A DNA stretch of 64,000 bases from an uncultured Formosa sp. (GCF_947500765.1 NZ_CANMTH010000012.1:48659-112658), one strand, 5' to 3'; counted from the stretch's first letter, positions 50,490 to 64,000 are shown. Notes: generated from the sequence alone by a model not told the origin. A program made the numbers and translations.

Positions 50490-50631
50490 GTTTTAAATGC
50501 TGTGTTTATGATTTAATGTTCAATGTTTTAATAATTTAGAATTGCTTTGTTAAAAAGGATTTGGGAGGTGTTAATAAATTTGATTAAGTAGTTTTCTTTT
50601 ATGTAGCGAGTTTAAGTATTAATATTTTTCT

Positions 50632-51381
50632 TTATAATATGTTTATTCCAGCAGAAATATACTGTTTAAGTTTTGGATCTTCTATGTCTAAATCTGTTAC
50701 AACAGTATCAATTTCTTTAAGATTACAAACATCATATCCTTGTCTTAAATTTAATTTATTAGACGTTGTTAAATATACAATGTGCTCGGAAGATTTTATC
50801 ATTGCTTTTTTTATTAAAGAAACTTCGTACCCATCTTCAGTAATTCCTGTTTCAATATCTAGTCCGCTTACTCCCATAAAACAAATGTTAGCTCTAATGT
50901 TAGATAAGTATTGAATAACATCAATCCCAATAGTAACCATTGAGCTTCTGTGAATTTTACCGCCAATAAAAATAGTTTCAACTAAAGGGTGTTCTGTTAA
51001 TTGCATGGCCAGAGGAAGACTGTAGGTGTAAACCGTTAGTTTTAAGTTTTTAGGAAGTAGCTTTGCGAGCATTAAATTAGTAGTACCACCGCTAATAATA
51101 ATAACCATGTTATCCTCTATAAGAGAAATTGCTTTTTGTGCAATACGAATTTTATTCTCTCTATTATATATAACATCTTCGTTATAATGGTAAAGCTTTT
51201 GGATGTTAGATATTGCTCCCCCGTGAACTTTTGTAATTATACCTTTATCATGTAATTCTTTAATATCTCGTCTTATTGTATCTTCAGAAACATTAAGTTT
51301 TTCTGATAAAAAACTAGAACTCACCTTCCGGTTTATGCTTACTTCATCAATCACTTTTTGTTGTCTCTCCTTTTTCTTCAT
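50632..51381 (-). CDS. DeoR/GlpR-family transcriptional regulator
   Basis: N-terminal HTH (VSSSFLSEKLNVSEDTIRRDIKELHDKGIITKVHGGAI); DeoR C-terminal sensor (IISGGTTNLMLAK). Confidence 0.95.
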   Translation of the reverse strand: MKKKERQQKVIDEVSINRKVSSSFLSEKLNVSEDTIRRDIKELHDKGIITKVHGGAISNIQKLYHYNEDVIYNRENKIRIAQKAISLIEDNMVIIISGGTTNLMLAKLLPKNLKLTVYTYSLPLAMQLTEHPLVETIFIGGKIHRSSMVTIGIDVIQYLSNIRANICFMGVSGLDIETGITEDGYEVSLIKKAMIKSSEHIVYLTTSNKLNLRQGYDVCNLKEIDTVVTDLDIEDPKLKQYISAGINIL

Positions 51382-51456
51382 GTAAATAATTTTTTCAAAA
51401 ATAAGATTAATTTAAAATTAGCTGTATAAAATAGGGGGTGTTAAAATACGCATTAT

Positions 51457-51486
51457 TTTGCATGTTTTAGTTCTTAAACGTGCAAA
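51457..51486. promoter_or_regulatory. candidate DeoR operator (inverted repeat) in the divergent intergenic region
   Basis: TTTGCATGTTT (51457-51467) / AAACGTGCAAA (51476-51486), 10 of 11 bp complementary, 8-bp spacer. Confidence 0.55.
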
Positions 51487-51503
51487 TGTTTTTAAAAAAT
51501 AAA

Positions 51504-51511
51504 TATATTTG
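51504..51511 (+). promoter_or_regulatory. candidate Bacteroidota -7 promoter element
   Basis: TATATTTG matches TAnnTTTG, 37 nt upstream of the NagX-like ATG. Confidence 0.45.
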
Positions 51512-51548
51512 AACGTATTAGCTAATTTTTAACAAACAATTTAAAATT

Positions 51549-52655
51549 ATGTTAAGTTCAAATAGGCTCATTTCTTTAGATGTTTTAAGGGGAATTACAA
51601 TCTCTTTTATGATTTTGGTAAATACTCCAGGGAGTTGGAGTTATGTGTATGCCCCGTTAAGACATGCAGCTTGGCATGGTTGTACGCCAACAGATTTGGT
51701 CTTTCCTTTTTTCTTATGTATTGTAGGTATATCTATTTGGTTCTCTTTTTCTAAATATGGAATAACATTGTCTATAACAAATACTTTAAAGATTCTAAAA
51801 CGGAGTGTTGTTATATTTCTCTTAGGGTTTGTGCTAAATCTTTTTCCGTTTTTCGATTTTGATAATGTGCGAGTTATGGGTGTGCTTCAACGTATTGCTA
51901 TTGCTTATGGAATTGGAGCCATACTTTGTTTAAGTTTTAAAAGAAGAAATTTGTTAATTGTTCTAGCTGTTATTTTGTTAGGGTATTGGGCGTTACTTTT
52001 TTTTGGTGCAGCATCAAATCCATATTCTTTACAAAATAATGTGGTTAGAACATTTGATGTGTTTTTATTTGGTAAAAATCACATCTATAAAGGCTTTGGT
52101 GTTCCGTTTGATCCGGAAGGATTATTGTCTGCTATTCCAGCCGTAGGAACGGTTATCCTTGGGTTTTTAATAGGTCAAATTGTAGCCGAAAAGGAGTCGT
52201 TAGTGTTTAAAGTTAGAAAGTTATTATTGTACGGATCTTTATTCGTGCTTTTAGGAATCATGTGGAATTTTGTTCTTCCTATAAATAAAGCGTTGTGGAC
52301 AAGTTCGTATGTGCTTTTTACAGCAGGTCTGTGTGCTATTCTTTTGGCTTTATTAATGTTTATTATTGATTTAAAGGGGGTTAGTGTGTGGTCTAGGCCT
52401 TTTGTTCATTTTGGGACTAATCCCTTATTTATATTTGTTTTATCTGGATTGTATATAAAAACGATTAATTACTTAATTAAGATACCGGTGTCTTCTGGAA
52501 ATAAAGTATCTGCTTATAAGTATCTGTATAATGAGGTGTTTGCTCCCATGTTAGGTAATATGAATGGATCATTAATGTTTGCTTTAACTCATATTATTAT
52601 ATTTTGGTCAATATGTTATCTCTTATATAGAAATAAAATATTTGTAAAAATATAG
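51549..52655 (+). CDS. NagX/HGSNAT-like (DUF5009) multi-TM protein
   Basis: SLDVLRGITISFMILVNTPGSWSYVYAPLRHAAWHGCTPTDLVFPFFLCIVGIS motif. Confidence 0.9.
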   Translation: MLSSNRLISLDVLRGITISFMILVNTPGSWSYVYAPLRHAAWHGCTPTDLVFPFFLCIVGISIWFSFSKYGITLSITNTLKILKRSVVIFLLGFVLNLFPFFDFDNVRVMGVLQRIAIAYGIGAILCLSFKRRNLLIVLAVILLGYWALLFFGAASNPYSLQNNVVRTFDVFLFGKNHIYKGFGVPFDPEGLLSAIPAVGTVILGFLIGQIVAEKESLVFKVRKLLLYGSLFVLLGIMWNFVLPINKALWTSSYVLFTAGLCAILLALLMFIIDLKGVSVWSRPFVHFGTNPLFIFVLSGLYIKTINYLIKIPVSSGNKVSAYKYLYNEVFAPMLGNMNGSLMFALTHIIIFWSICYLLYRNKIFVKI

Positions 52656-52718
52656 TTTTTAATAAGATTTTTTGTGTAGATAAGCGATTTTATTGGGTTT
52701 TTTGTTAAAACTTGCAAT

Positions 52719-52752
52719 ATTATGCATGAAAAATGATTGATTATTGCATAAT
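52719..52752. promoter_or_regulatory. candidate operator upstream of susC (inverted repeat)
   Basis: ATTATGCA (52719-52726) / TGCATAAT (52745-52752), with a further TTGCAAT half-site at 52712. Confidence 0.5.
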
Positions 52753-52791
52753 TTTTCTACTTTTAGTGCAATAACTAATACCTTAGTCCTT

Positions 52792-55700
52792 ATGAAAAAA
52801 ACGAACACCCTTTTCTCTTTTCTTAAGAGAGCCAAATTTATGATAAGCTTTTCGCTGTTTATGTTGTTTGGGTTTGGATTGCAAAGCCAGACACTTTATA
52901 CCTTAAAAGGTAGTGTGAAAGACAATTTAGGAAGTCCTGCGACAGGTGTCACGGTTCAGCTTAAAAATACGAATCAGGGAGCTATTTCTGATTTTGATGG
53001 AAACTATGAGTTAAAAGCTAGTTTAGAGCCAGGCGAATATACGTTAGTCTTTAGATTATTAGGTTTATCTACTCAAGAAGTAAAAATGATTTTAGGGAAT
53101 CAAACCAATGTGGTTAAAGATGTTGAGATGACTATGGATATTCTAGGGTTAGATCAAGTTGTTATTACGGGTGCAGGTGCATTAACACAAAAAAGACAAT
53201 TAGGTAATACCATCTCTAGTATTAAAGGTGGCGAGATTTCGCAAGCTGGTTCTGTAGATATAACAGGTGCCCTTTCTGGAAAATTAGCAGGTATTCAAGT
53301 GTCACAGAATTCAGGAGATCCTGCAGGTGGAATAAGTGTTAGATTAAGAAGTTCTAGTACAGTTAACGGTAGTTCAGATCCTTTGTATATAATAGATGGT
53401 GTTATTGTTAATAATAACTCTACAGATGTTTTAGGATCTACGAGTGTTGTTCAAAACAGAATGTCAGATATTAGTCCGCAAGATATTGATAGGATAGAAG
53501 TTATTAAAGGAGCGGCAGCCGCAGCTATATATGGATCTAGAGCAAGTAATGGTGTTGTTCAAATTTTTACTAAGAAGGGACAGTCTGGAGAGCCTGTTAT
53601 TACCATTTCTTCAAGTGTGAATTTTAATTCTTTGAGAAAAAAACGTGAATATAATGATGAGCCTTTTACATGGGCATCGTCAGATATTACGGTGTTAGAT
53701 AAGGTCGCAGCCACACGATATGATTATCAAGATATGGTGTTTGAAAATTCTATAGGGACAGATAATTATGTGTCTATGTCTGGAGGAAAAGGAAATACTA
53801 ATTATTTCGGGTCGTTTTCTTATCTAAAGAACGATGGGATTCTTAAAAGCACAAATTATCAAAGACAATCAGGAAGAATTAGAGTAAATCAAGTTGTAAA
53901 CGACTGGATATCGGCTTCTTTTGGGACCTATTTTTCTACAAGTAAGAGTCAGGATCAACCAAACGGAGGTTATGTTGCGGGTGTGTTGCCTACAATTTTA
54001 TTTTCAGATAATTCGATAGACCCTAGACCCGATGAAGATGGAAATTATCCAACAATGACCTTTTATCCTAATATATTAGAATACATTGATACTTTCGATT
54101 TCACTCAGAAGAGTAATAGAAATATTAGTGATTTACAAATAACGTTAAAGCCAGTAGATGGACTTAAAGTAAACTACGTTTTAGGTTACGATAATTCAGA
54201 ATCTACAGGAAATACTTATATCCCAATTGGAACTACTACTATTGAATTAGGTAGTGCTAGTACAACAACAATTGCGACAACTCAATTTAATAGTGATTTA
54301 AACGGGTCTTATAATTTAGATTTAAATGATGTTTTATCATCAACAACTACAACAGGGTTTTCATGGCAAGCAGATGAAACTAACTTAAGTTCAATTTCAG
54401 GAACGGGATTAGCTTTAGGTGTAAAAACAACCAACGGATCTGCATCTATTAGTACTAATGAAAGTAGAAGTGAACGTTCTTTTTGGGGAGGTTTTTTACA
54501 GCAAACATTTGGTTTTAAAGATAAGCTTTTCGTTACAGGAGCTATTAGGCTAGATGGTTCTTCAGTTTTTGGTGAAGATGAAAGAAATCAATGGTATCCA
54601 AAAACAAGTATGTCGTATCTGGTTTCTGAAGAAGATTTTTGGGATAATACTTTTGGTAGTGCACTTAATAGTTTTAAAGTTAGAGCAGCTTGGGGACAGG
54701 CAGGTAACCTTACTGCTATAGGACCATTCGATAGATTGTCAAATTATTCGGCTGTTAGTATCGATGGAACTTCTGGTTTAATAGCACCAACCGAATTAGG
54801 GAATGCAGATCTTAAACCAGAAAGACAAACAGAATTAGAGTTTGGTATTGATATGGGATTATTTAATAATAGAATAGGGGTAGAGCTTACTTATTATAAA
54901 CAAAATATTGAAGACTTATTATTGGCTAGAACGTTATCTCCTTCAACAGGGTTTGGATCTAGAGTCGAGAATATCGGAACTATGACAAATAGTGGGTTTG
55001 AAGCATTAATTACTGCAACGCCTATACAAACGAACGATTTTAGCTGGACTGTTACGGGAACTTTTTCTACTAATAAAAATGAAGTGAATGATATAGAAGG
55101 AGATCAGTTTAGTATTGGAAACTTTGATTTCTCAGTTGCTAAAAATGGTGAGGCATTGGGTGTTTTTTATCAAGGATACTACGCAAGAAATGAAGATGGA
55201 AGCTTGCTTTTAACAGAAGGTGGTCTTCCGCAAAGAGAAAAAGGATCGTACGATGCAGATGGTAATCCTGTCGCAGGAAGAGATGCCTCTGGACAACCTA
55301 GTGGATCGAATTTAAGTAAGGTTATTGGCGATCCAAATCCAGACTTTATAGCGTCTTTAACAAATGAATTTAGATATAAAAACTTTTCTTTTAGAATGCA
55401 GTTTGATGCCGTTCAAGGTGTCGATTTATTAAGTTGGGATACACGTATGTTATATCGTTTTGGAGGTGGAGAACAAACCGCTAAAGAATTAAGAGGAGAG
55501 AGTGTTAGAGGAACTGGGGCAGCTAATTTTAGTATCGCAGAATCCTATATAGAAGATGGGTCTTATATTAAGCTTCGTGAGTTATCAACATCTTATTTAT
55601 TAAAAGATCCTTTACAAGGAGTAGATAGTGTAAGATTTACATTAACAGGACGTAATTTACTTTCTATTGATAGTTTTTCTGGTCACGATCCAGAAGTAAA

Positions 55701-55794
55701 TATGGATGGACAAAGTAATGGTTCTCGTGGAGGTGTTATGGGGTTAGTACCTATTCCTAGAGTTATAAAATTTGGTGTAGTTGCTACTTTTTAA
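52792..55794 (+). CDS. SusC/RagA-family TonB-linked outer membrane protein
   Basis: CarboxypepD_reg-like N-terminus, plug motif (IEVIKGAAAAAIYGSRASNGVVQIFTKKG), C-terminal barrel; start moved to ATG 52792 (track start is TTG 52744). Confidence 0.95.
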   Translation: MKKTNTLFSFLKRAKFMISFSLFMLFGFGLQSQTLYTLKGSVKDNLGSPATGVTVQLKNTNQGAISDFDGNYELKASLEPGEYTLVFRLLGLSTQEVKMILGNQTNVVKDVEMTMDILGLDQVVITGAGALTQKRQLGNTISSIKGGEISQAGSVDITGALSGKLAGIQVSQNSGDPAGGISVRLRSSSTVNGSSDPLYIIDGVIVNNNSTDVLGSTSVVQNRMSDISPQDIDRIEVIKGAAAAAIYGSRASNGVVQIFTKKGQSGEPVITISSSVNFNSLRKKREYNDEPFTWASSDITVLDKVAATRYDYQDMVFENSIGTDNYVSMSGGKGNTNYFGSFSYLKNDGILKSTNYQRQSGRIRVNQVVNDWISASFGTYFSTSKSQDQPNGGYVAGVLPTILFSDNSIDPRPDEDGNYPTMTFYPNILEYIDTFDFTQKSNRNISDLQITLKPVDGLKVNYVLGYDNSESTGNTYIPIGTTTIELGSASTTTIATTQFNSDLNGSYNLDLNDVLSSTTTTGFSWQADETNLSSISGTGLALGVKTTNGSASISTNESRSERSFWGGFLQQTFGFKDKLFVTGAIRLDGSSVFGEDERNQWYPKTSMSYLVSEEDFWDNTFGSALNSFKVRAAWGQAGNLTAIGPFDRLSNYSAVSIDGTSGLIAPTELGNADLKPERQTELEFGIDMGLFNNRIGVELTYYKQNIEDLLLARTLSPSTGFGSRVENIGTMTNSGFEALITATPIQTNDFSWTVTGTFSTNKNEVNDIEGDQFSIGNFDFSVAKNGEALGVFYQGYYARNEDGSLLLTEGGLPQREKGSYDADGNPVAGRDASGQPSGSNLSKVIGDPNPDFIASLTNEFRYKNFSFRMQFDAVQGVDLLSWDTRMLYRFGGGEQTAKELRGESVRGTGAANFSIAESYIEDGSYIKLRELSTSYLLKDPLQGVDSVRFTLTGRNLLSIDSFSGHDPEVNMDGQSNGSRGGVMGLVPIPRVIKFGVVATF

Positions 55795-55819
55795 ACGTGT
55801 AAACAAAAAATAATAAAAG

Positions 55820-57166
55820 ATGAAAAATATAAAAATATATACAATAATTGGAGTTATTCTTCTTAGTAGTGGTTTGTTTACAGCTTGCGATACTGAGTTC
55901 GAGAATCCAAATAATCCAACAGAAGATGTTGTTTTAGGAACAAAAGAAGGCCTTTTTGCTTTGGCTACAGGAATTAGACAATATTACTCTGTAACTGCGT
56001 TAAGACAAGTTATAGAGGCGCCAGGTATTACAACTAGAGAGTTAGGGGTTACCAATACCTTTCTAAATATTAATGAATTAGCTAAAGGAGGTGCTGAATT
56101 GCCATCTGAAAGTGGAGGAATTACAAATCCTTGGACATATCTTTTGAAAACTAAAGGAATGGCTGAATCATTAATTGAAGGCACAAATACAGTAGAACTT
56201 AATGCAGGTACGCGAAGTGGTTTATTGGCTTATGGGAATTTAATAAAAGCCATGTGTCTTGGGTCATTAATTGAAATGTTTGAACAGGTACCAATAGATA
56301 ATTCTGCAGATGGAGCAGCTGTATTTAGCGATAAAGCTACTGTATTGTCTGAGTGTATTCTATTATTAGAAGAGGCTAGAAATGAGTTGGCTTCAGAACC
56401 AATGTCTGATGATTTTGAAACAACAGTATTGTGGTCAGATATGAGTTTAGAGAAAACTATTAATGCGTTTTTATCTAGATATCAATTAATGGCTGGTAAT
56501 TATGCAGAGTCAATAATATCTGCAGATGCAGTCTTAAATTCTAGCGACACGACAAACTCTATGTGGATATACGATGCTAATAATGAAAACCCTATTTGGA
56601 ATAGAACAGTTAATTCTGCCGATTTAAATCCGCAATCAAATTTTGGATTAACAGGAGATTATATTCCAGAAGAAGAAGATGGTAGAATAGATTTTTATTT
56701 AGGTGCAGATGCTGGGTTTGCAAATGAAGATGCTGGTGGACAAGCGCTTAGTGAGATGCTTGGTTTTTTCGATTCTAGTACAGCTCCAATTCCAATTTAT
56801 CTTCCTGGAGAAATGATGCTTAATAAAGCAGAAGCATATGCTCGATTAAATCAATTAGATAATGCAGTAACTCAATTAAACCTTGTAAGACAAAAAACAA
56901 ACGATCCTTTAGGTGTAAATGCAAATCTTCCGGCCTGGTCTGGAGATGAGTCTAATGCTGATGCTATTCTAGAAGAAATATATATAAATAGAAGTGTTGA
57001 GTTATTTCTTACAGGATTAAGGTTTGGAGATAGTAAAAGATTTCATCCAGATTTTGATGTGCCTTTAGAAGCAAATACAACAAATGAAAGAAATAGAAAT
57101 TATTACCCTTATCCAAGTACAGAAAGAGAAAATAACCCTAATACCCCTGCAGACCCTACTATATAA
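55820..57166 (+). CDS. SusD/RagB-family lipoprotein
   Basis: lipobox (SGLFTAC), TPR-like SusD fold sequence, adjacent to SusC. Confidence 0.9.
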   Translation: MKNIKIYTIIGVILLSSGLFTACDTEFENPNNPTEDVVLGTKEGLFALATGIRQYYSVTALRQVIEAPGITTRELGVTNTFLNINELAKGGAELPSESGGITNPWTYLLKTKGMAESLIEGTNTVELNAGTRSGLLAYGNLIKAMCLGSLIEMFEQVPIDNSADGAAVFSDKATVLSECILLLEEARNELASEPMSDDFETTVLWSDMSLEKTINAFLSRYQLMAGNYAESIISADAVLNSSDTTNSMWIYDANNENPIWNRTVNSADLNPQSNFGLTGDYIPEEEDGRIDFYLGADAGFANEDAGGQALSEMLGFFDSSTAPIPIYLPGEMMLNKAEAYARLNQLDNAVTQLNLVRQKTNDPLGVNANLPAWSGDESNADAILEEIYINRSVELFLTGLRFGDSKRFHPDFDVPLEANTTNERNRNYYPYPSTERENNPNTPADPTI

Positions 57167-57204
57167 AAGAGTAAAGTTTGATTTTTTTATTTAGTTAATT
57201 TTAT

Positions 57205-57230
57205 AAAGGGTAACAAGAGTGTTGCCCTTT
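57205..57230 (+). terminator. strong intercistronic stem-loop
   Basis: AAAGGGTAACA AGAG TGTTGCCCTTT, 11-bp stem with one G-T pair, tetraloop; no long T-run, so possibly an mRNA-stabilising hairpin and not a terminator. Confidence 0.6.
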
Positions 57231-57278
57231 GTAGAATTAAAAAAGATACAAGCATATTATATAATTTAAATAATTATT

Positions 57279-58463
57279 ATGAAAGTACAAACAGGTTTAG
57301 ATGTATTGTTAAATGATAAGAAACTTCAAGAAACATTTAAGGGGAATATTGCTTTACTTTGCCATAATGCCTCTATAGATTCAACATATACTCATGCTGC
57401 ATTAGGTTTTAAAATAGCATTCCAAGAACGGTTTGTTAAATTATTTGGACCACAGCATGGTTTTTCTACAGATGTGCAAGATAATATGGTAGAAACGGAT
57501 CATGTTATTCATCCTTTTTTTAAAATACCAGTGTATTCTTTGTATTCAGAAACACGCATTCCTACAGATGAGATGCTTCAAGGTGTAGATCATTTATTTG
57601 TAGACTTGCAAGATGTAGGCTGCCGAGTATATACTTACATTTATACCTTAACATATTTATTAGAAAAGTGTGCTTCAAAACCAATAGAAATTATTGTGTT
57701 AGATCGTCCAAATCCAATAAATGGTATCGATATAGAAGGTAATATACTCGATTTAGATTTTGAATCTTTTGTAGGAAGGCACCCTATACCAATGCGTCAT
57801 GGTATGACAATTGGAGAAGTTGCTTTAATGCATCAAAAATTTTGGGTTAAAGAGAAAGCAAATTTAAAAGTTATAAAAATGCTTAATTGGGATAGGAATA
57901 TGTTTTATGAAGATACCCAACTACCCTGGTTATTACCGTCTCCTAACTTGGCAAGAATAGAAAGTTCTTATACGTTTCCTGCAACTGTTTTGTTTGAAGG
58001 GACAACTTTAAGTGAAGGTCGTGGTACTACACAATCTTTAGAGGTTGTTGGTCATCCAAAAATAGAACCTTTTTCGTTCTATGAGAATGTGCTTTCTGAA
58101 GCTATGAAACAATCAAAATTAGAAGGTTTCAAATACAGGCCAATTACGTTTTTGCCTACGTTTCAAAAACAAGGTGGTAAGGTTTGTGGCGGTATTCAAA
58201 TTCATGTTACAAATAAATCTATTTATAAGCCTTGGCGTGCAGGGCAGTTATTAATGAGAGAGTTGTATCATTATTTAGGAGATAATTTTGATTGGAAGCT
58301 ACCGCCTTATGAATATAATTATAATCAACATCCGATAGATCTTATTAACGGTACAGATAAATTGAGACATTGGGTGGTTAACAATAGCTCTATTGAAGCT
58401 TTAGATGCTTTTGAAGACTTAAAAATATATAAAAAGCAACTACACGATATTAAGATTTATTAA
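57279..58463 (+). CDS. namZ: DUF1343 family, exo-beta-N-acetylmuramidase NamZ-like, no signal peptide
   Basis: LFGPQHGFSTDVQDNM; FVDLQDVGCRVYTYIYTL; LDRPNPING; SPNLARIESSYTFPATVLFEGTTLSEGRGTTQSLEVVGHP, the typical DUF1343/NamZ motifs. Confidence 0.88.
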   Translation: MKVQTGLDVLLNDKKLQETFKGNIALLCHNASIDSTYTHAALGFKIAFQERFVKLFGPQHGFSTDVQDNMVETDHVIHPFFKIPVYSLYSETRIPTDEMLQGVDHLFVDLQDVGCRVYTYIYTLTYLLEKCASKPIEIIVLDRPNPINGIDIEGNILDLDFESFVGRHPIPMRHGMTIGEVALMHQKFWVKEKANLKVIKMLNWDRNMFYEDTQLPWLLPSPNLARIESSYTFPATVLFEGTTLSEGRGTTQSLEVVGHPKIEPFSFYENVLSEAMKQSKLEGFKYRPITFLPTFQKQGGKVCGGIQIHVTNKSIYKPWRAGQLLMRELYHYLGDNFDWKLPPYEYNYNQHPIDLINGTDKLRHWVVNNSSIEALDAFEDLKIYKKQLHDIKIY

Positions 58464-58527
58464 TGAAGTCTTTTCTCTTAATCTTAAAAAAGTAAGCTAG
58501 GATAATTATTTTAATCAAATTATATAC

Positions 58528-59988
58528 ATGAGCGCAACACTTATCTTAATAATTATAGCAGCGTATTTTGGAGTATTACTTCTAATATCTCATGTGGTTT
58601 CAAAAAATACAAGCGACGATTCTTTTTATACTGGAGATCGTAAATCGCCTTGGCAAGTCGTTGCTTTTGGAATGATTGGTGCCGTGCTGTCAGGAGTTAC
58701 TTTTGTATCTATTCCGGGTATGGTTGGAACCAATTACTTTTACTATTTACAATTCGTTTTTGGTAATGTAGTTGGGTATGTGTTTATAACGTATGTGCTT
58801 GTACCAATTTATTACGATTTAAAATTAGTTTCAATATACACGTATTTAGAATCGCGTTTCGGAATTAAATCTTATAAAACAGGATCACTTTTTTTTCTAA
58901 TATCACAATCTTTTGGTGCAGCACTTAGACTTTTATTAGCTGCAAAAATTTTACAATATGCGGTTTTTGATGCCTTTCATATTCCATTTTTTGTAACTGT
59001 ACTTATTATACTGGTTCTTATTTGGCTTTACACACATAAATCTGGAATTAAAACTATTGTTTGGACAGATACGTTGCAAACATTTTTCTTATTACTCTCT
59101 GTAGGTATTACTATATATGTGGTTAAAAGTGCTTTAAATTTAAGTCTTTCAGAAACAACTTCTGCAGTGATTAATCATGAGTATTTTAAAGTTTTTAACT
59201 GGGATTTTAATTCAGGAAGCAACTTTTTTAAACAGTTTATTTCAGGAGTTTTAATAGCTGTAGCCATGGTTGGTTTAGATCAAAACATGATGCAGAAAAC
59301 ACTAACGTGTAAAAATAAAAAAGAAGCTCAACGTAATATTTTAACCTTTAGTTTGGTGCTGGCAGTAACTCAATTTCTGTTTTTAGGATTGGGTGTTATG
59401 CTGTATATGTATGCAGAAAAATTTGGAATACAATTAGACGTAGAAAACGGAAAATTTATAAATACAGATACCTTATTTCCAATGTTGTCTTTAAATCATT
59501 TTGGAACAATTGCAAGCTTAAGTTTTATTTTAGGAATTACGGCAGCATCGTTTTCAAGTGCAGATTCTGCTCTAACAGCCCTAACAACATCATTTACATA
59601 CGATTTTATGGATGTTCAACATAAAAATTCAAAAGAAAAAAAGGCTATAAAAAATCTGGTGCTATTAGGTTTTTCTGTAGTCATTTTTACAATTATTATG
59701 GTGTTTTCACAAAGTAAAGGCAATGTAATTTCACTCATATTTAAAGTTGCAGGATATACCTATGGTCCGTTATTAGGACTGTATATGTTTGGAATTTTTA
59801 CTAAAATCAAGATAAAAGATGCAGCAGTACCATTTATATGTATTGCTATGCCTATCGTAACCTATCTTTTAAATCACTATTTTATTCTTTGGTTTGATTT
59901 CGATTTTGGGTTCATGAACATATTTGTTAATGCTTTTTTAACGGTTATATGTTTAATCCTTTATCGTGATAAAAAAAATATAAATTAA
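58528..59988 (+). CDS. sodium:solute symporter family transporter
   Basis: multi-TM; FYTGDRKSPWQVVAFGMIGAVLSGVTFVSIPGMVG; FSSADSALTALTTSFTYDF. Confidence 0.93.
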   Translation: MSATLILIIIAAYFGVLLLISHVVSKNTSDDSFYTGDRKSPWQVVAFGMIGAVLSGVTFVSIPGMVGTNYFYYLQFVFGNVVGYVFITYVLVPIYYDLKLVSIYTYLESRFGIKSYKTGSLFFLISQSFGAALRLLLAAKILQYAVFDAFHIPFFVTVLIILVLIWLYTHKSGIKTIVWTDTLQTFFLLLSVGITIYVVKSALNLSLSETTSAVINHEYFKVFNWDFNSGSNFFKQFISGVLIAVAMVGLDQNMMQKTLTCKNKKEAQRNILTFSLVLAVTQFLFLGLGVMLYMYAEKFGIQLDVENGKFINTDTLFPMLSLNHFGTIASLSFILGITAASFSSADSALTALTTSFTYDFMDVQHKNSKEKKAIKNLVLLGFSVVIFTIIMVFSQSKGNVISLIFKVAGYTYGPLLGLYMFGIFTKIKIKDAAVPFICIAMPIVTYLLNHYFILWFDFDFGFMNIFVNAFLTVICLILYRDKKNIN

Positions 59989-59996
59989 ATTGAAAA

Positions 59997-60830
59997 ATGC
60001 TGAAAATGAAAAATAAACTAACTACAGAACAAGCATCAGACTATAATAATTTGGAAAAAATGAGCACTAACGAGTTGCTTACAAATATGAATGCTGAAGA
60101 TAAAACAGTGCCCTATGCTTTAGAAAAAGCGGTGCCTTCTATTGAGAAATTAGTAGATGTTATTTATGATAAAATGAAAGCAGGAGGCAGACTGTTCTAT
60201 ATCGGGGCAGGAACAAGCGGACGATTGGGCGTGTTAGATGCATCAGAATGCCCGCCAACTTATGGGGTTTCAGACGACTGGGTTATTGGGCTAATTGCAG
60301 GAGGCGATTTTGCACTTAGAAAAGCAGTAGAAAATGCTGAAGACGATACCGATTTAGCCTGGAACGATTTGAAAAAATATAATATTAATCAGAATGATGT
60401 ACTTGTAGGTATCGCGGCTTCTGGAACCACGCCATATGTTATTGGTGGCGTAGAAAAAGCGAAAGCAAATAATATTATTACAGGTTGTGTTACCTGTAAT
60501 CAAGATTCTCCATTGTCATTAAAAGTAGACTATCCTATAGAGTTGGTTGTAGGGCCAGAGTTCGTTACTGGCAGTACTAGAATGAAAGCTGGAACTGCAC
60601 AGAAATTAGCGTTAAATATGATTTCCACAACGGTAATGATAAAGCTAGGTCGGGTTAAAGGGAATAAGATGGTGAATATGCAATTGTCTAATAAAAAATT
60701 AGTGAATAGAGGTGTTAAAATGATTGTAGATGAGTTGAATATCGATGAAAAACTAGCTAAAAAATTATTGATTGAATATAAAAGCGTTAAAGATACGCTT
60801 GATTTTTATAAATCAACATACGTTAAATAA
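59997..60830 (+). CDS. murQ: N-acetylmuramic acid 6-phosphate etherase
   Basis: GGRLFYIGAGTSGRLGVLDASECPPTYG; VGIAASGTTPYVIGG; GPEFVTGSTRMKAGTAQKLALNMIST. Confidence 0.97.
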   Translation: MLKMKNKLTTEQASDYNNLEKMSTNELLTNMNAEDKTVPYALEKAVPSIEKLVDVIYDKMKAGGRLFYIGAGTSGRLGVLDASECPPTYGVSDDWVIGLIAGGDFALRKAVENAEDDTDLAWNDLKKYNINQNDVLVGIAASGTTPYVIGGVEKAKANNIITGCVTCNQDSPLSLKVDYPIELVVGPEFVTGSTRMKAGTAQKLALNMISTTVMIKLGRVKGNKMVNMQLSNKKLVNRGVKMIVDELNIDEKLAKKLLIEYKSVKDTLDFYKSTYVK

Positions 60831-60868
60831 GTTCTGTGTAAATTGTACAGAAGTAAAACTAAATTTTA

Positions 60869-63784
60869 ATGAAAAAGTTAATTATTGTTAGTGTCTTTTT
60901 AGTGTGTGTGTCAACTTACGCGCAACAACATAAGCCACTACAAACTCAAAACACAGAGCATCAAAAAAAGTGGGTAGATAGTGTTTTTAAAACGCTTACA
61001 CTAGATCAGAAAATCGGTCAGCTTTTTATGATTCAAGCTTACTCAAATAGAGACGAAAAGCAAACTAATTTTATCAAAAAAATGATAAAAGAGTATCAAA
61101 TTGGCGGACTTATTTTTATGCAAGGTACTCCCGAAAAACAGGTAAAACTTACCAACCTATATCAGTCTAAATCTAAGATTCCTTTATTAATTGGATTCGA
61201 TGGTGAATGGGGCTTGGATATGCGATTAAAAAACACATTCCGTTATCCTTGGAATATGACTTTAGGAGCCGTACAAAATAACATGTTAATAGAAGAGTTT
61301 GGGAAGCAATTAGGAGTACATTGTAAACGTGTTGGTATCCATATTAATTTTGCTCCCGTTGTCGATATTAATACAAATCCAGAAAATCCTATTATTGGAA
61401 ATCGTTCTTTTGGAGAGAATAAATATAATGTTACCGAAAAAGCAATAGCGTTTACTAAAGGTATGCAAAGTATGGGCGTACTAGCAAATGCAAAACATTT
61501 TCCAGGTCATGGAGACACCTCTACAGACTCTCATAAAACCTTACCTTATTTAGATTTTAGTTTAGATCGTTTAGATTCTATTGAATTGTATCCTTACAAA
61601 AAGTTATTTAAAACAGACTTAGCAAGTGTTATGATTGCACATTTAAATGTGCCTGCCCTAGAGCCTAAAGCAGGTGTGCCAACATCTGTTTCATACAATG
61701 TAGTGACTAGGCTTTTAAAAGAAAAAATGAATTTTAAAGGTTTGATTTTTACAGATGCTTTAAATATGAAAGGTGCTGCAAACTATGCACAACCAGGAGA
61801 TATTGATTTGGCTGCATTTGTAGCTGGTAACGACATGTTGCTTATTCCAGAAGACGTAAAAGCTGCTGTTTTTAAACTGAAACAAGCATTAAAAACAAAT
61901 GTTATTACTGAAGCTCGTTTAGATGAATCTGTTTATAAAATATTAAACGCTAAATACTGGGCTGGACTGAATCATTTTACTCCAATTAAAGAAGTCGATA
62001 TCAAAGAAGATATTATTACTCCAAGAGATGAGGTGTTGTACAGATCTTTAATGAAAGAAGCCGTAACGCTTGTACAAAATAACGATGCAACACTTCCTAT
62101 TCAAAATTTGGCAGAGTCTAAAATTGCTTATGTAAAATTAGGAGATTCAGATAATTTTAACTTTACAAATACATTAAAAAAATATACAGAAGTAGATGTT
62201 GTTTCAGATGAAAATCTTTCAAGTTTACTTAAAAAATTAGAGGCTTATAATACTGTTATTGTTGGTTTTCATAAATCGAATGATACCCCATGGAAAAGTT
62301 ATAAAATGTCTAGTGAAGAATTGACTTGGTTGCAAGAAATTTCAAAAACAAATAAAGTGATATTAGATGTTTTTGCAAGTCCGTATACGCTATTAAAGAT
62401 TTCAGATTTTTCTAATATAGATGCTGTTATGGTGTCTTACCAAAATAGTGAAATATCACAAGAAATTTCTGCACAAATGATTTTTGGAGCATTAGAAATT
62501 AAGGGGAAATTACCCGTTTCTATAAACAATACGTTTTCAGAAGGAACAGGCATAACAACACCAAATTTATTAAGACTTTCATACGCAATTCCAGAAGAAG
62601 TTGATATGGATAGTAAAAGGCTTTCTAAAATAGATTCTATTACAAAAATAGTTGTAGATTCTACCATAGCTCCTGGCGGACAAGTATTAGTTGCTAGATA
62701 TGGAAAAGTCATTTATCATAAAAGTTTTGGGTATCAGACTTATAATAAAAAGCAAGAAGTGAAAGTTACAGACCTTTACGATTTAGCTTCACTAACTAAA
62801 ATACTAGGTGGTCTTCCTATGATTATGAAAAGTGAAGAGCTTGGCCTTCTAAATATAGATAATACACTTGGCGAACTCTTACCTTATTTAAAAGGTTCTA
62901 ATAAAGATACCATTACATTAAAAGAAGCACTGTCTCATAATGCGAAAATTAAACCTTGGATTCCGTATTATTTAGAAACTATTGATACTGTAACTAAGAT
63001 TCCTTTTAGTAAATATTATAGTAAAACTAAGACCCCAGATTTTTCGATTAAAGTAGCCGAAGGTTTATACCTAATTAGTTCGTACACAGATTCTATTTAT
63101 AAAAAAATAGCCGAAGCACCACAGGAAATTAAAGGAGGTTATAAGTATAGTGGTTTGCTATTTTATTTATTCAAAAAGTATATAAAAAATACTTATGGGG
63201 AAGATATGGATGTGTTAAATAATCAGGAATTTTATAAGCCTCTAGGAGCAAATACGTTAACGTATAACCCGTTAAATAAATTTGATGTATCTAAAATTGC
63301 ACCTACAGAAAATGATGATTATTTCAGGGGACAATTACTTCAAGGTTATGTTCACGATATGGGTGCTGCCATGATGAATGGTGTAAGTGGTAATGCTGGT
63401 TTGTTTAGTAATTCTAACGATGTTGCTAAGATGATGCAAATGTATTTGCAAGACGGATATTATGGTGGTAAACGTTATTATGAATCGAAAACCGTACATA
63501 AATTTAATCATAGGTATTTCGAAAAAGATAGTGTGAGAAGAGGTCTTGGTTTCGATAAGCCTCAGCTAGATCCTGAAGTATTTGCAAGTAGTAAATATGC
63601 TTCTGAAAATAGTTTTGGTCATTCAGGCTTTACAGGAACTTTTGCATGGGCAGATCCTGATACTGGTATATTATATGTCTTTTTATCGAATAGAGTATAT
63701 CCAACAATGGTAAATAATAAGATTGGAGAGCAAAATATAAGAACAAATATTCTTGATATTATTTATGAAGCTATAAAAGAATAA
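60869..63784 (+). CDS. exported GH3 (NagZ-like beta-N-acetylglucosaminidase) fused to C-terminal beta-lactamase-fold serine hydrolase (AmiE-like)
   Basis: signal peptide MKKLIIVSVFLVCVSTYAQ; NagZ motif NAKHFPGHGDTSTDSHKTLP; FTDALNMKGA; C-terminal SLTK (SxxK), YSG, HSGFTGT motifs of class C beta-lactamase-like enzymes. Confidence 0.93.
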   Translation: MKKLIIVSVFLVCVSTYAQQHKPLQTQNTEHQKKWVDSVFKTLTLDQKIGQLFMIQAYSNRDEKQTNFIKKMIKEYQIGGLIFMQGTPEKQVKLTNLYQSKSKIPLLIGFDGEWGLDMRLKNTFRYPWNMTLGAVQNNMLIEEFGKQLGVHCKRVGIHINFAPVVDINTNPENPIIGNRSFGENKYNVTEKAIAFTKGMQSMGVLANAKHFPGHGDTSTDSHKTLPYLDFSLDRLDSIELYPYKKLFKTDLASVMIAHLNVPALEPKAGVPTSVSYNVVTRLLKEKMNFKGLIFTDALNMKGAANYAQPGDIDLAAFVAGNDMLLIPEDVKAAVFKLKQALKTNVITEARLDESVYKILNAKYWAGLNHFTPIKEVDIKEDIITPRDEVLYRSLMKEAVTLVQNNDATLPIQNLAESKIAYVKLGDSDNFNFTNTLKKYTEVDVVSDENLSSLLKKLEAYNTVIVGFHKSNDTPWKSYKMSSEELTWLQEISKTNKVILDVFASPYTLLKISDFSNIDAVMVSYQNSEISQEISAQMIFGALEIKGKLPVSINNTFSEGTGITTPNLLRLSYAIPEEVDMDSKRLSKIDSITKIVVDSTIAPGGQVLVARYGKVIYHKSFGYQTYNKKQEVKVTDLYDLASLTKILGGLPMIMKSEELGLLNIDNTLGELLPYLKGSNKDTITLKEALSHNAKIKPWIPYYLETIDTVTKIPFSKYYSKTKTPDFSIKVAEGLYLISSYTDSIYKKIAEAPQEIKGGYKYSGLLFYLFKKYIKNTYGEDMDVLNNQEFYKPLGANTLTYNPLNKFDVSKIAPTENDDYFRGQLLQGYVHDMGAAMMNGVSGNAGLFSNSNDVAKMMQMYLQDGYYGGKRYYESKTVHKFNHRYFEKDSVRRGLGFDKPQLDPEVFASSKYASENSFGHSGFTGTFAWADPDTGILYVFLSNRVYPTMVNNKIGEQNIRTNILDIIYEAIKE

Positions 63785-63848
63785 TATTCATAGATTCAAT
63801 AGGAAAGCATTTTAAAAGGAAATAAATAATCAATCAAAAAAAAACATC

Positions 63849-64000
63849 ATGCTAAAAAGTAGTATAGACAAAGCCACAGGATTTGAAAAGCGGTTCGAGA
63901 ACATCGGAACGGTAGTATATGAAGATTCTATTTCAGGGTCGAAAGCTGTAGCAAAAGAAATAGCCGACTTAATTAAGGTTAAAGCATCCCAAAAACAACC
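63849..64000 (+). CDS. nagB: N-terminus of glucosamine-6-phosphate deaminase (truncated by window end)
   Basis: translation MLKSSIDKATGFEKRFENIGTVVYEDSISGSKAVAKEIADLIKVKASQKQP resembles the N-terminus of Bacteroidota long-form NagB. Confidence 0.75.
   Translation, partial: MLKSSIDKATGFEKRFENIGTVVYEDSISGSKAVAKEIADLIKVKASQKQ

Follow-up and report, generated by a model that had tools for sequence, protein, structure and literature searches.

A candidate peptidoglycan-sugar utilisation locus built around an exchangeable SusC/D slot in an uncultured Formosa sp.

By which proteins could fragments of peptidoglycan (murein) pass the outer membrane of Bacteroidota? This crossing is not established, and the Tannerella papers cited here treat the inner-membrane steps only (PMC5790795, PMC5388701). 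The question is raised by a locus at positions 50632-64000 of a 64,000-nucleotide stretch of DNA from an uncultured Formosa sp. (GCF_947500765.1, NZ_CANMTH010000012.1:48659-112658), the whole of which is called here the window. The original prediction had placed nine genes in this locus, and all of them were confirmed in position and order by family matches: a DeoR-type regulator on the minus strand and, on the plus strand, genes for a NagX-like protein, SusC, SusD, NamZ, a Na+/solute symporter (SSS), MurQ, a NagZ::AmiE-like fusion and NagB. The SusC and SusD homologues are adjacent, with 25 bp between their genes, and are co-located with glycan-degrading enzymes of glycoside hydrolase (GH) families, GH171 NamZ and GH3 NagZ, and with the DeoR regulator, an arrangement typical of a polysaccharide utilisation locus (PUL). 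With a probability of roughly three in four, the set is a DeoR-controlled locus for the utilisation of peptidoglycan sugars, in which the SusC/D pair would import murein fragments, and comparative genomics strongly supports the assignment to murein.

The SusD family of the window was found in 36 of 400 Flavobacteriaceae genomes. The SusD gene is intact in 31 neighbourhoods, of which 22 hold one or more of NamZ, SSS, MurQ, AnmK, NagB, NagZ and AmpG within 10 kb, and 19 hold there one or more that are murein-specific (NamZ, MurQ, AnmK or AmpG). An order-level search gave four further loci from another genus, three of which adjoin peptidoglycan-sugar genes. The original prediction had named a pair unlinked from namZ and murQ in relatives as the observation that would speak against it, and these counts show the linkage instead. 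As a control, none of about 150 listed PF07980 SusDs in the relatives was within 10 kb of MurQ in a by-eye comparison of two position tables, the nearest being at about 11.5 kb.

The related clusters also differ in content. Lutibacter has, in this order, DeoR, SusC, SusD, NamZ, SSS, MurQ, AnmK, an FAD/FeS D-2-hydroxyacid dehydrogenase, a dipeptide-epimerase relative and NagZ::AmiE-like, and such epimerase relatives in the related clusters are L-Ala-D/L-Glu-epimerase-like enzymes. MurQ yields D-lactate, so a D-hydroxyacid dehydrogenase beside it is what the pathway would need, and D-lactate is its presumed substrate. Five other loci (L113, L114, L117, L127, and L128) carry SusC, SusD, GHL10, AmpG, NagZ, and AnmK with adjoining MurQ, DeoR, and NagB, the last being absent from L114. 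The SusD subclades are not tied to either SSS or AmpG, as the AmpG-linked SusDs are scattered on the tree (4 changes for 4 rows). In several genera a methyltransferase of about 220 amino acids stands after the window-type SusD or inside the murein cluster (L113 14944-15603, L112 10596-11258, L115, and L118).

The outer-membrane pair itself consists of a SusC-type TonB-dependent transporter (52792-55794; TIGR04056, 576 bits) and a SusD-type surface lipoprotein (55820-57166; PF07980, SusD_RagB). The most likely start of SusC is the ATG at 52792, because it gives the 1000-amino-acid length of the relatives. The lipobox cysteine of SusD, Cys23, is invariant across 38 relatives, and the AlphaFold model has the SusD fold with a mean confidence (pLDDT) of 81.5. 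Its structural matches are remote, with TM scores of about 0.6 and less than 20% identity to any solved SusD, and mixed, including ButD, RagB, and BT2263, which are peptide- or bacteriocin-related, the sialic acid protein NanU, glycan binders, and many uncharacterised SusDs. Transport of murein fragments by this pair is proposed from the gene content and the conserved linkage.

The analysis shows directly which genes and domains are present, that the catalytic motifs are intact, where the proteins are predicted to lie, and that the linkage is conserved; from this we infer a pathway, that is, the transported substrate, the order of the steps, the kinase, and the roles of NagX and PIG-L. Soluble murein fragments, either muropeptides or denuded glycans of N-acetylglucosamine (GlcNAc) and N-acetylmuramic acid (MurNAc), would enter the periplasm through SusC/D, where the NagZ::AmiE-like fusion (60869-63784; PF00933, PF01915, and PF00144) would trim the non-reducing-end GlcNAc and cut the peptide off MurNAc. 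This fusion bears a signal peptide (MKKLIIVSVFLVCVSTYAQ; signal peptides were judged by eye, with no predictor), so that NagZ and AmiE are exported as in recovery of the Bacillus subtilis type, and it keeps the NagZ motifs KHFPGHG and TDAL as well as SxxK and HSGFTG of the AmiE-like domain, its best solved match being B. subtilis NagZ/YbbD (3bmx, E 5e-60). The NagX-like transmembrane protein (51549-52655), a relative of the N-acetyltransferase HGSNAT, may re-acetylate de-acetylated amino sugars with cytosolic acetyl-CoA. It matches human HGSNAT structures (E 5e-19) and, over its full length, the NagX equivalog NF046061, where its 146 bits fall below the cut-off of 480 and indicate homology only.

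The symporter (58528-59988; PF00474, SSF), the closest solved relative of which is a bacterial sodium:solute symporter (5nv9), is the candidate inner-membrane importer and would move MurNAc, or a MurNAc-containing disaccharide, into the cytosol. MurNAc-6-phosphate would then be made by a kinase encoded outside the cluster, which itself holds neither a kinase nor a phosphotransferase system (PTS) that could supply it. The genome has a single BadF-type kinase, located on contig C8 beside pfk and gap, which resembles the T. forsythia MurNAc kinases (MurK-like), and a single AnmK on contig C19, likewise outside the cluster. MurQ, the MurNAc-6-phosphate etherase (59997-60830), is known to produce GlcNAc-6-phosphate and D-lactate (PMC5061867) and would do so here; it scores above the TIGR00274 cut-off (327 bits), retains both catalytic glutamate motifs, DASE and ENAEDD, and matches the solved MurQ 4lzj at E 8e-74. 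As another MurQ is present elsewhere in the genome, the one in the window is an additional copy.

NagB would take the MurQ product to fructose-6-phosphate. The route from MurQ through GlcNAc-6-phosphate and NagB to fructose-6-phosphate was drawn correctly by the original prediction but lacked a step, because NagB acts on glucosamine-6-phosphate and a deacetylation must come before it; the fused PIG-L domain may deacetylate GlcNAc-6-phosphate. The nagB gene starts at 63850 and runs to position 64000, which is the end both of the window and of contig C12. Contig C22 overlaps this end and holds the complete gene, coding for a glucosamine-6-phosphate deaminase::PIG-L protein of 642 amino acids. 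The part in the window is 94% identical over the first 50 residues to the NagB of Formosa sp. L2A11 (locus L036), an orthologue with Glucosamine_iso and PIG-L domains, and the nearest solved relative of NagB is a glucosamine-6-phosphate deaminase. The final part of nagB is shared with the beginning of contig C2, where nadD and gmk follow in the L2A11 order, so the cluster closes with nagB. Contigs C12, C22, C2, and C7 all start or end in nagB with overlapping sequence, and because of these overlaps it is probable that two or more near-identical copies in the genome broke the assembly. A search for plasmid carriage gave no match.

NamZ, the GH171 exo-beta-N-acetylmuramidase (57279-58463; NamZ_N 248 bits, NamZ_C 126 bits), belongs to a subfamily without a signal peptide, and there is no in-frame upstream extension, nor room for one; close relatives in the SusC/D clusters likewise have none. 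The lipoprotein-type NamZ forms a separate branch with about 35% identity to the window protein, in which the conserved motifs are kept, and an exported NamZ, as in recovery of the B. subtilis type, is encoded elsewhere in the same genome, on contig C4. Because it lacks a signal peptide, the window NamZ probably acts in the cytosol, where it could split MurNAc-GlcNAc, and if so an intact MurNAc-containing disaccharide must cross the inner membrane. In locus L129 (G369) an intact signal-less NamZ stands beside a SusD fragment with a stop, which reads as a recent loss of the SusC/D pair.

How firmly the pair belongs to the locus can be seen from its congeners. The L2A11 locus has 86% DNA identity to the window at 50619-52674 and 58524-64000 and no similarity between them. 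In that interval its slot is taken by a PF12771 SusD and by a SusC that has 27% identity to the window's and is unrelated to it, and NamZ is lacking. In two Formosa-type genomes, G002 and G004 (L038, L039, and L096), both units stand in tandem with one DeoR each; the susC-susD-namZ and NagZ::AmiE parts of the window match one of them, and its DeoR-nagX, SSS, and MurQ parts match the other. As its segments match different tandem units, the window locus looks like a composite of the two, and the window and L2A11 loci appear to be different composites, which suggests recombination between units. The L2A11 pair represents a second SusC/D type (SusC2/D2), which is also the occupant in Polaribacter, Gelidibacter, Tamlana, Wocania, Yeosuana, Urechidicola, and one Arenibacter. 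Thus the slot is conserved, whereas what fills it varies.

Some related clusters carry further genes. A protein of about 764 amino acids lies between SSS and MurQ in the Yeosuana-type clusters (L132 11497-13791, also L133, L143, L150, L152, and L157); in L132 it is a DUF6259 protein, and DUF6259 is also present in L178. GH18 proteins with a type IX secretion system (T9SS) sorting tail, likely secreted endo-acting enzymes, are found in the SusC2/D2-type murein clusters (L132 16321-17787 and L163 14036-15505), and a fusion of GH9 and polysaccharide deacetylase closes the Gelidibacter murein cluster (L041 4126-6639, L163, and L164).

Several observations weigh against murein-fragment import by the window pair. 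The ligand of SusD cannot be read from structure comparison, all solved SusDs being less than 20% identical; 9 of the 31 loci with window-type SusD have no peptidoglycan genes nearby, two of them (L111 and L119) being on short contigs; NagZ, NagB, and NagX are compatible with the use of chitin or amino sugars as well; and, since unrelated SusC/D can fill the slot, linkage alone is no proof of the specificity of the window pair.

Among other explanations the one that survives best, possible though not favoured, agrees on the pathway and differs in the source of the fragments: the locus would recycle the products of the cell's own wall turnover, and SusC/D would recapture those lost to the medium. 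The presence in related clusters of AnmK and AmpG, classical recycling genes for the anhydro-sugars released by lytic transglycosylases, and the absence of a secreted endo-acting hydrolase from the window cluster agree with this. However, the genome already encodes a separate MurQ, a NamZ, and an AnmK at other sites, periplasmic recycling needs no surface SusC/D, and the T9SS-tailed GH18 in several SusC2/D2-type clusters points to attack on external polymer. It is unlikely that the pair is a generic or unrelated importer which drifted into a MurNAc operon. Such drift could account for the replacement of the pair by an unrelated one in congeners and for the isolated window-type pairs in Gelidibacter and some others, as in Gelidibacter sediminis, where the murein cluster holds the other pair (L099 and L153); but in the congeners it is another SusC/D that stands at this position, so a pair is required there, and the window type is murein-linked in many genera while the approximately 150 other SusDs are not. 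A locus for chitin or other GlcNAc glycans with auxiliary MurNAc genes is about as unlikely. NagX, NagB::PIG-L, and the N-acetylglucosaminidase of GH3 would suit chito-oligosaccharides, chitobiose is hydrolysed by RmNag3, a GH3::beta-lactamase fusion (PMC6987092), and some related clusters have GH18 or GH20. But the window cluster holds no chitinase, and MurQ, NamZ, AnmK, AmpG, and the D-2-hydroxyacid dehydrogenase, which have no role in chitin use, recur with the window SusC/D type, on which grounds a chitin-only reading was rejected.

Control of the proposed murein locus is probably local. The DeoR-family repressor (50632-51381; PF00455, 146 bits, with HTH_DeoR) is divergent from nagX in the window and from susC or nagX in most related loci. 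A candidate operator, the direct repeat GCA-N7-GCA (GCATTATTTTGCA, 51450-51462, plus strand), is enriched in the homologous intergenic regions that separate DeoR from its divergent neighbour, where it occurs in 23 of 44 against 2.9 expected (at most 6 in 40 shuffles), which is suggestive only, as these 44 regions are related and not independent. A genome-wide scan gave 3 matches against 5 in the reversed control, and no regulon was inferred.

Loci of this kind are already known. The original prediction left it undecided whether the arrangement had been described before, and a close equivalent had in fact been drawn in 2023, with murein metabolism noted, for Urechidicola, a symbiont of the Idas mussel: a PUL in which two susCD pairs stand with deoR, a sodium cotransporter, murQ, nagB, ampG, and GH3, GH18, GH171, and GH10 (PMC10199937). 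Like the window it comes from Flavobacteriaceae and combines deoR, susCD, the Na+ cotransporter, murQ, nagB, GH3, and GH171 (NamZ), while it differs in its two pairs and in AmpG, GH18, GH10, and peptide enzymes (PMC10199937); in the window there is a single pair, which is of the other SusC/D type, together with NagX, a NamZ that lacks a signal peptide, and the NagZ::AmiE-like fusion. In a Urechidicola metagenome-assembled genome (L167) SusC2/D2-SSS-MurQ-NagZ-NagB is followed by a GH18-like protein of 489 amino acids, NamZ, and AmpG. The parallel with B. subtilis, also drawn at the outset, holds in that counterparts of MurQ, NagZ, AmiE, and NamZ are clustered in both murQRP-amiE-nagZ-ybbC(namZ) and the window, but the former has the PTS transporter MurP and the regulator MurR and no outer membrane or SusC/D (PMC5061867), whereas the window has NagZ and the AmiE-like domain in one protein, a NamZ that is not exported, and a symporter as the candidate for uptake. 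Another Bacteroidota system, murTKQ-ampG of Tannerella forsythia, resembles the window in a MurNAc transporter of the sodium symporter superfamily, MurQ, and a neighbouring NamZ (ybbC), and differs in having MurK and AmpG in the operon and GppX control, with no SusC/D reported there (PMC5790795, PMC5388701). The open-access literature searched gave no functional test of a murein-linked SusC/D. What is added here is the family-wide conservation with a control, the existence of two SusC/D types that can replace each other, the NamZ without a signal peptide, and the D-2-hydroxyacid dehydrogenase that accompanies such clusters.

A broader hypothesis, held only tentatively, is that at least two distantly related and interchangeable SusC/D families serve as murein-fragment importers in Flavobacteriaceae, and that the symporter imports a whole MurNAc-containing disaccharide which NamZ splits in the cytosol. 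If true, disaccharide import would be a third inner-membrane route besides MurP/MurT for free MurNAc and AmpG for GlcNAc-anhydro-muropeptides. A SusC/D slot that is conserved, open to exchange and tied to MurNAc catabolism provides concrete candidates for the outer-membrane importers. Much organic matter in the sea is held in the cell walls of bacteria, so an uptake route devoted to them, if common marine bacteria have one, would matter for their turnover.

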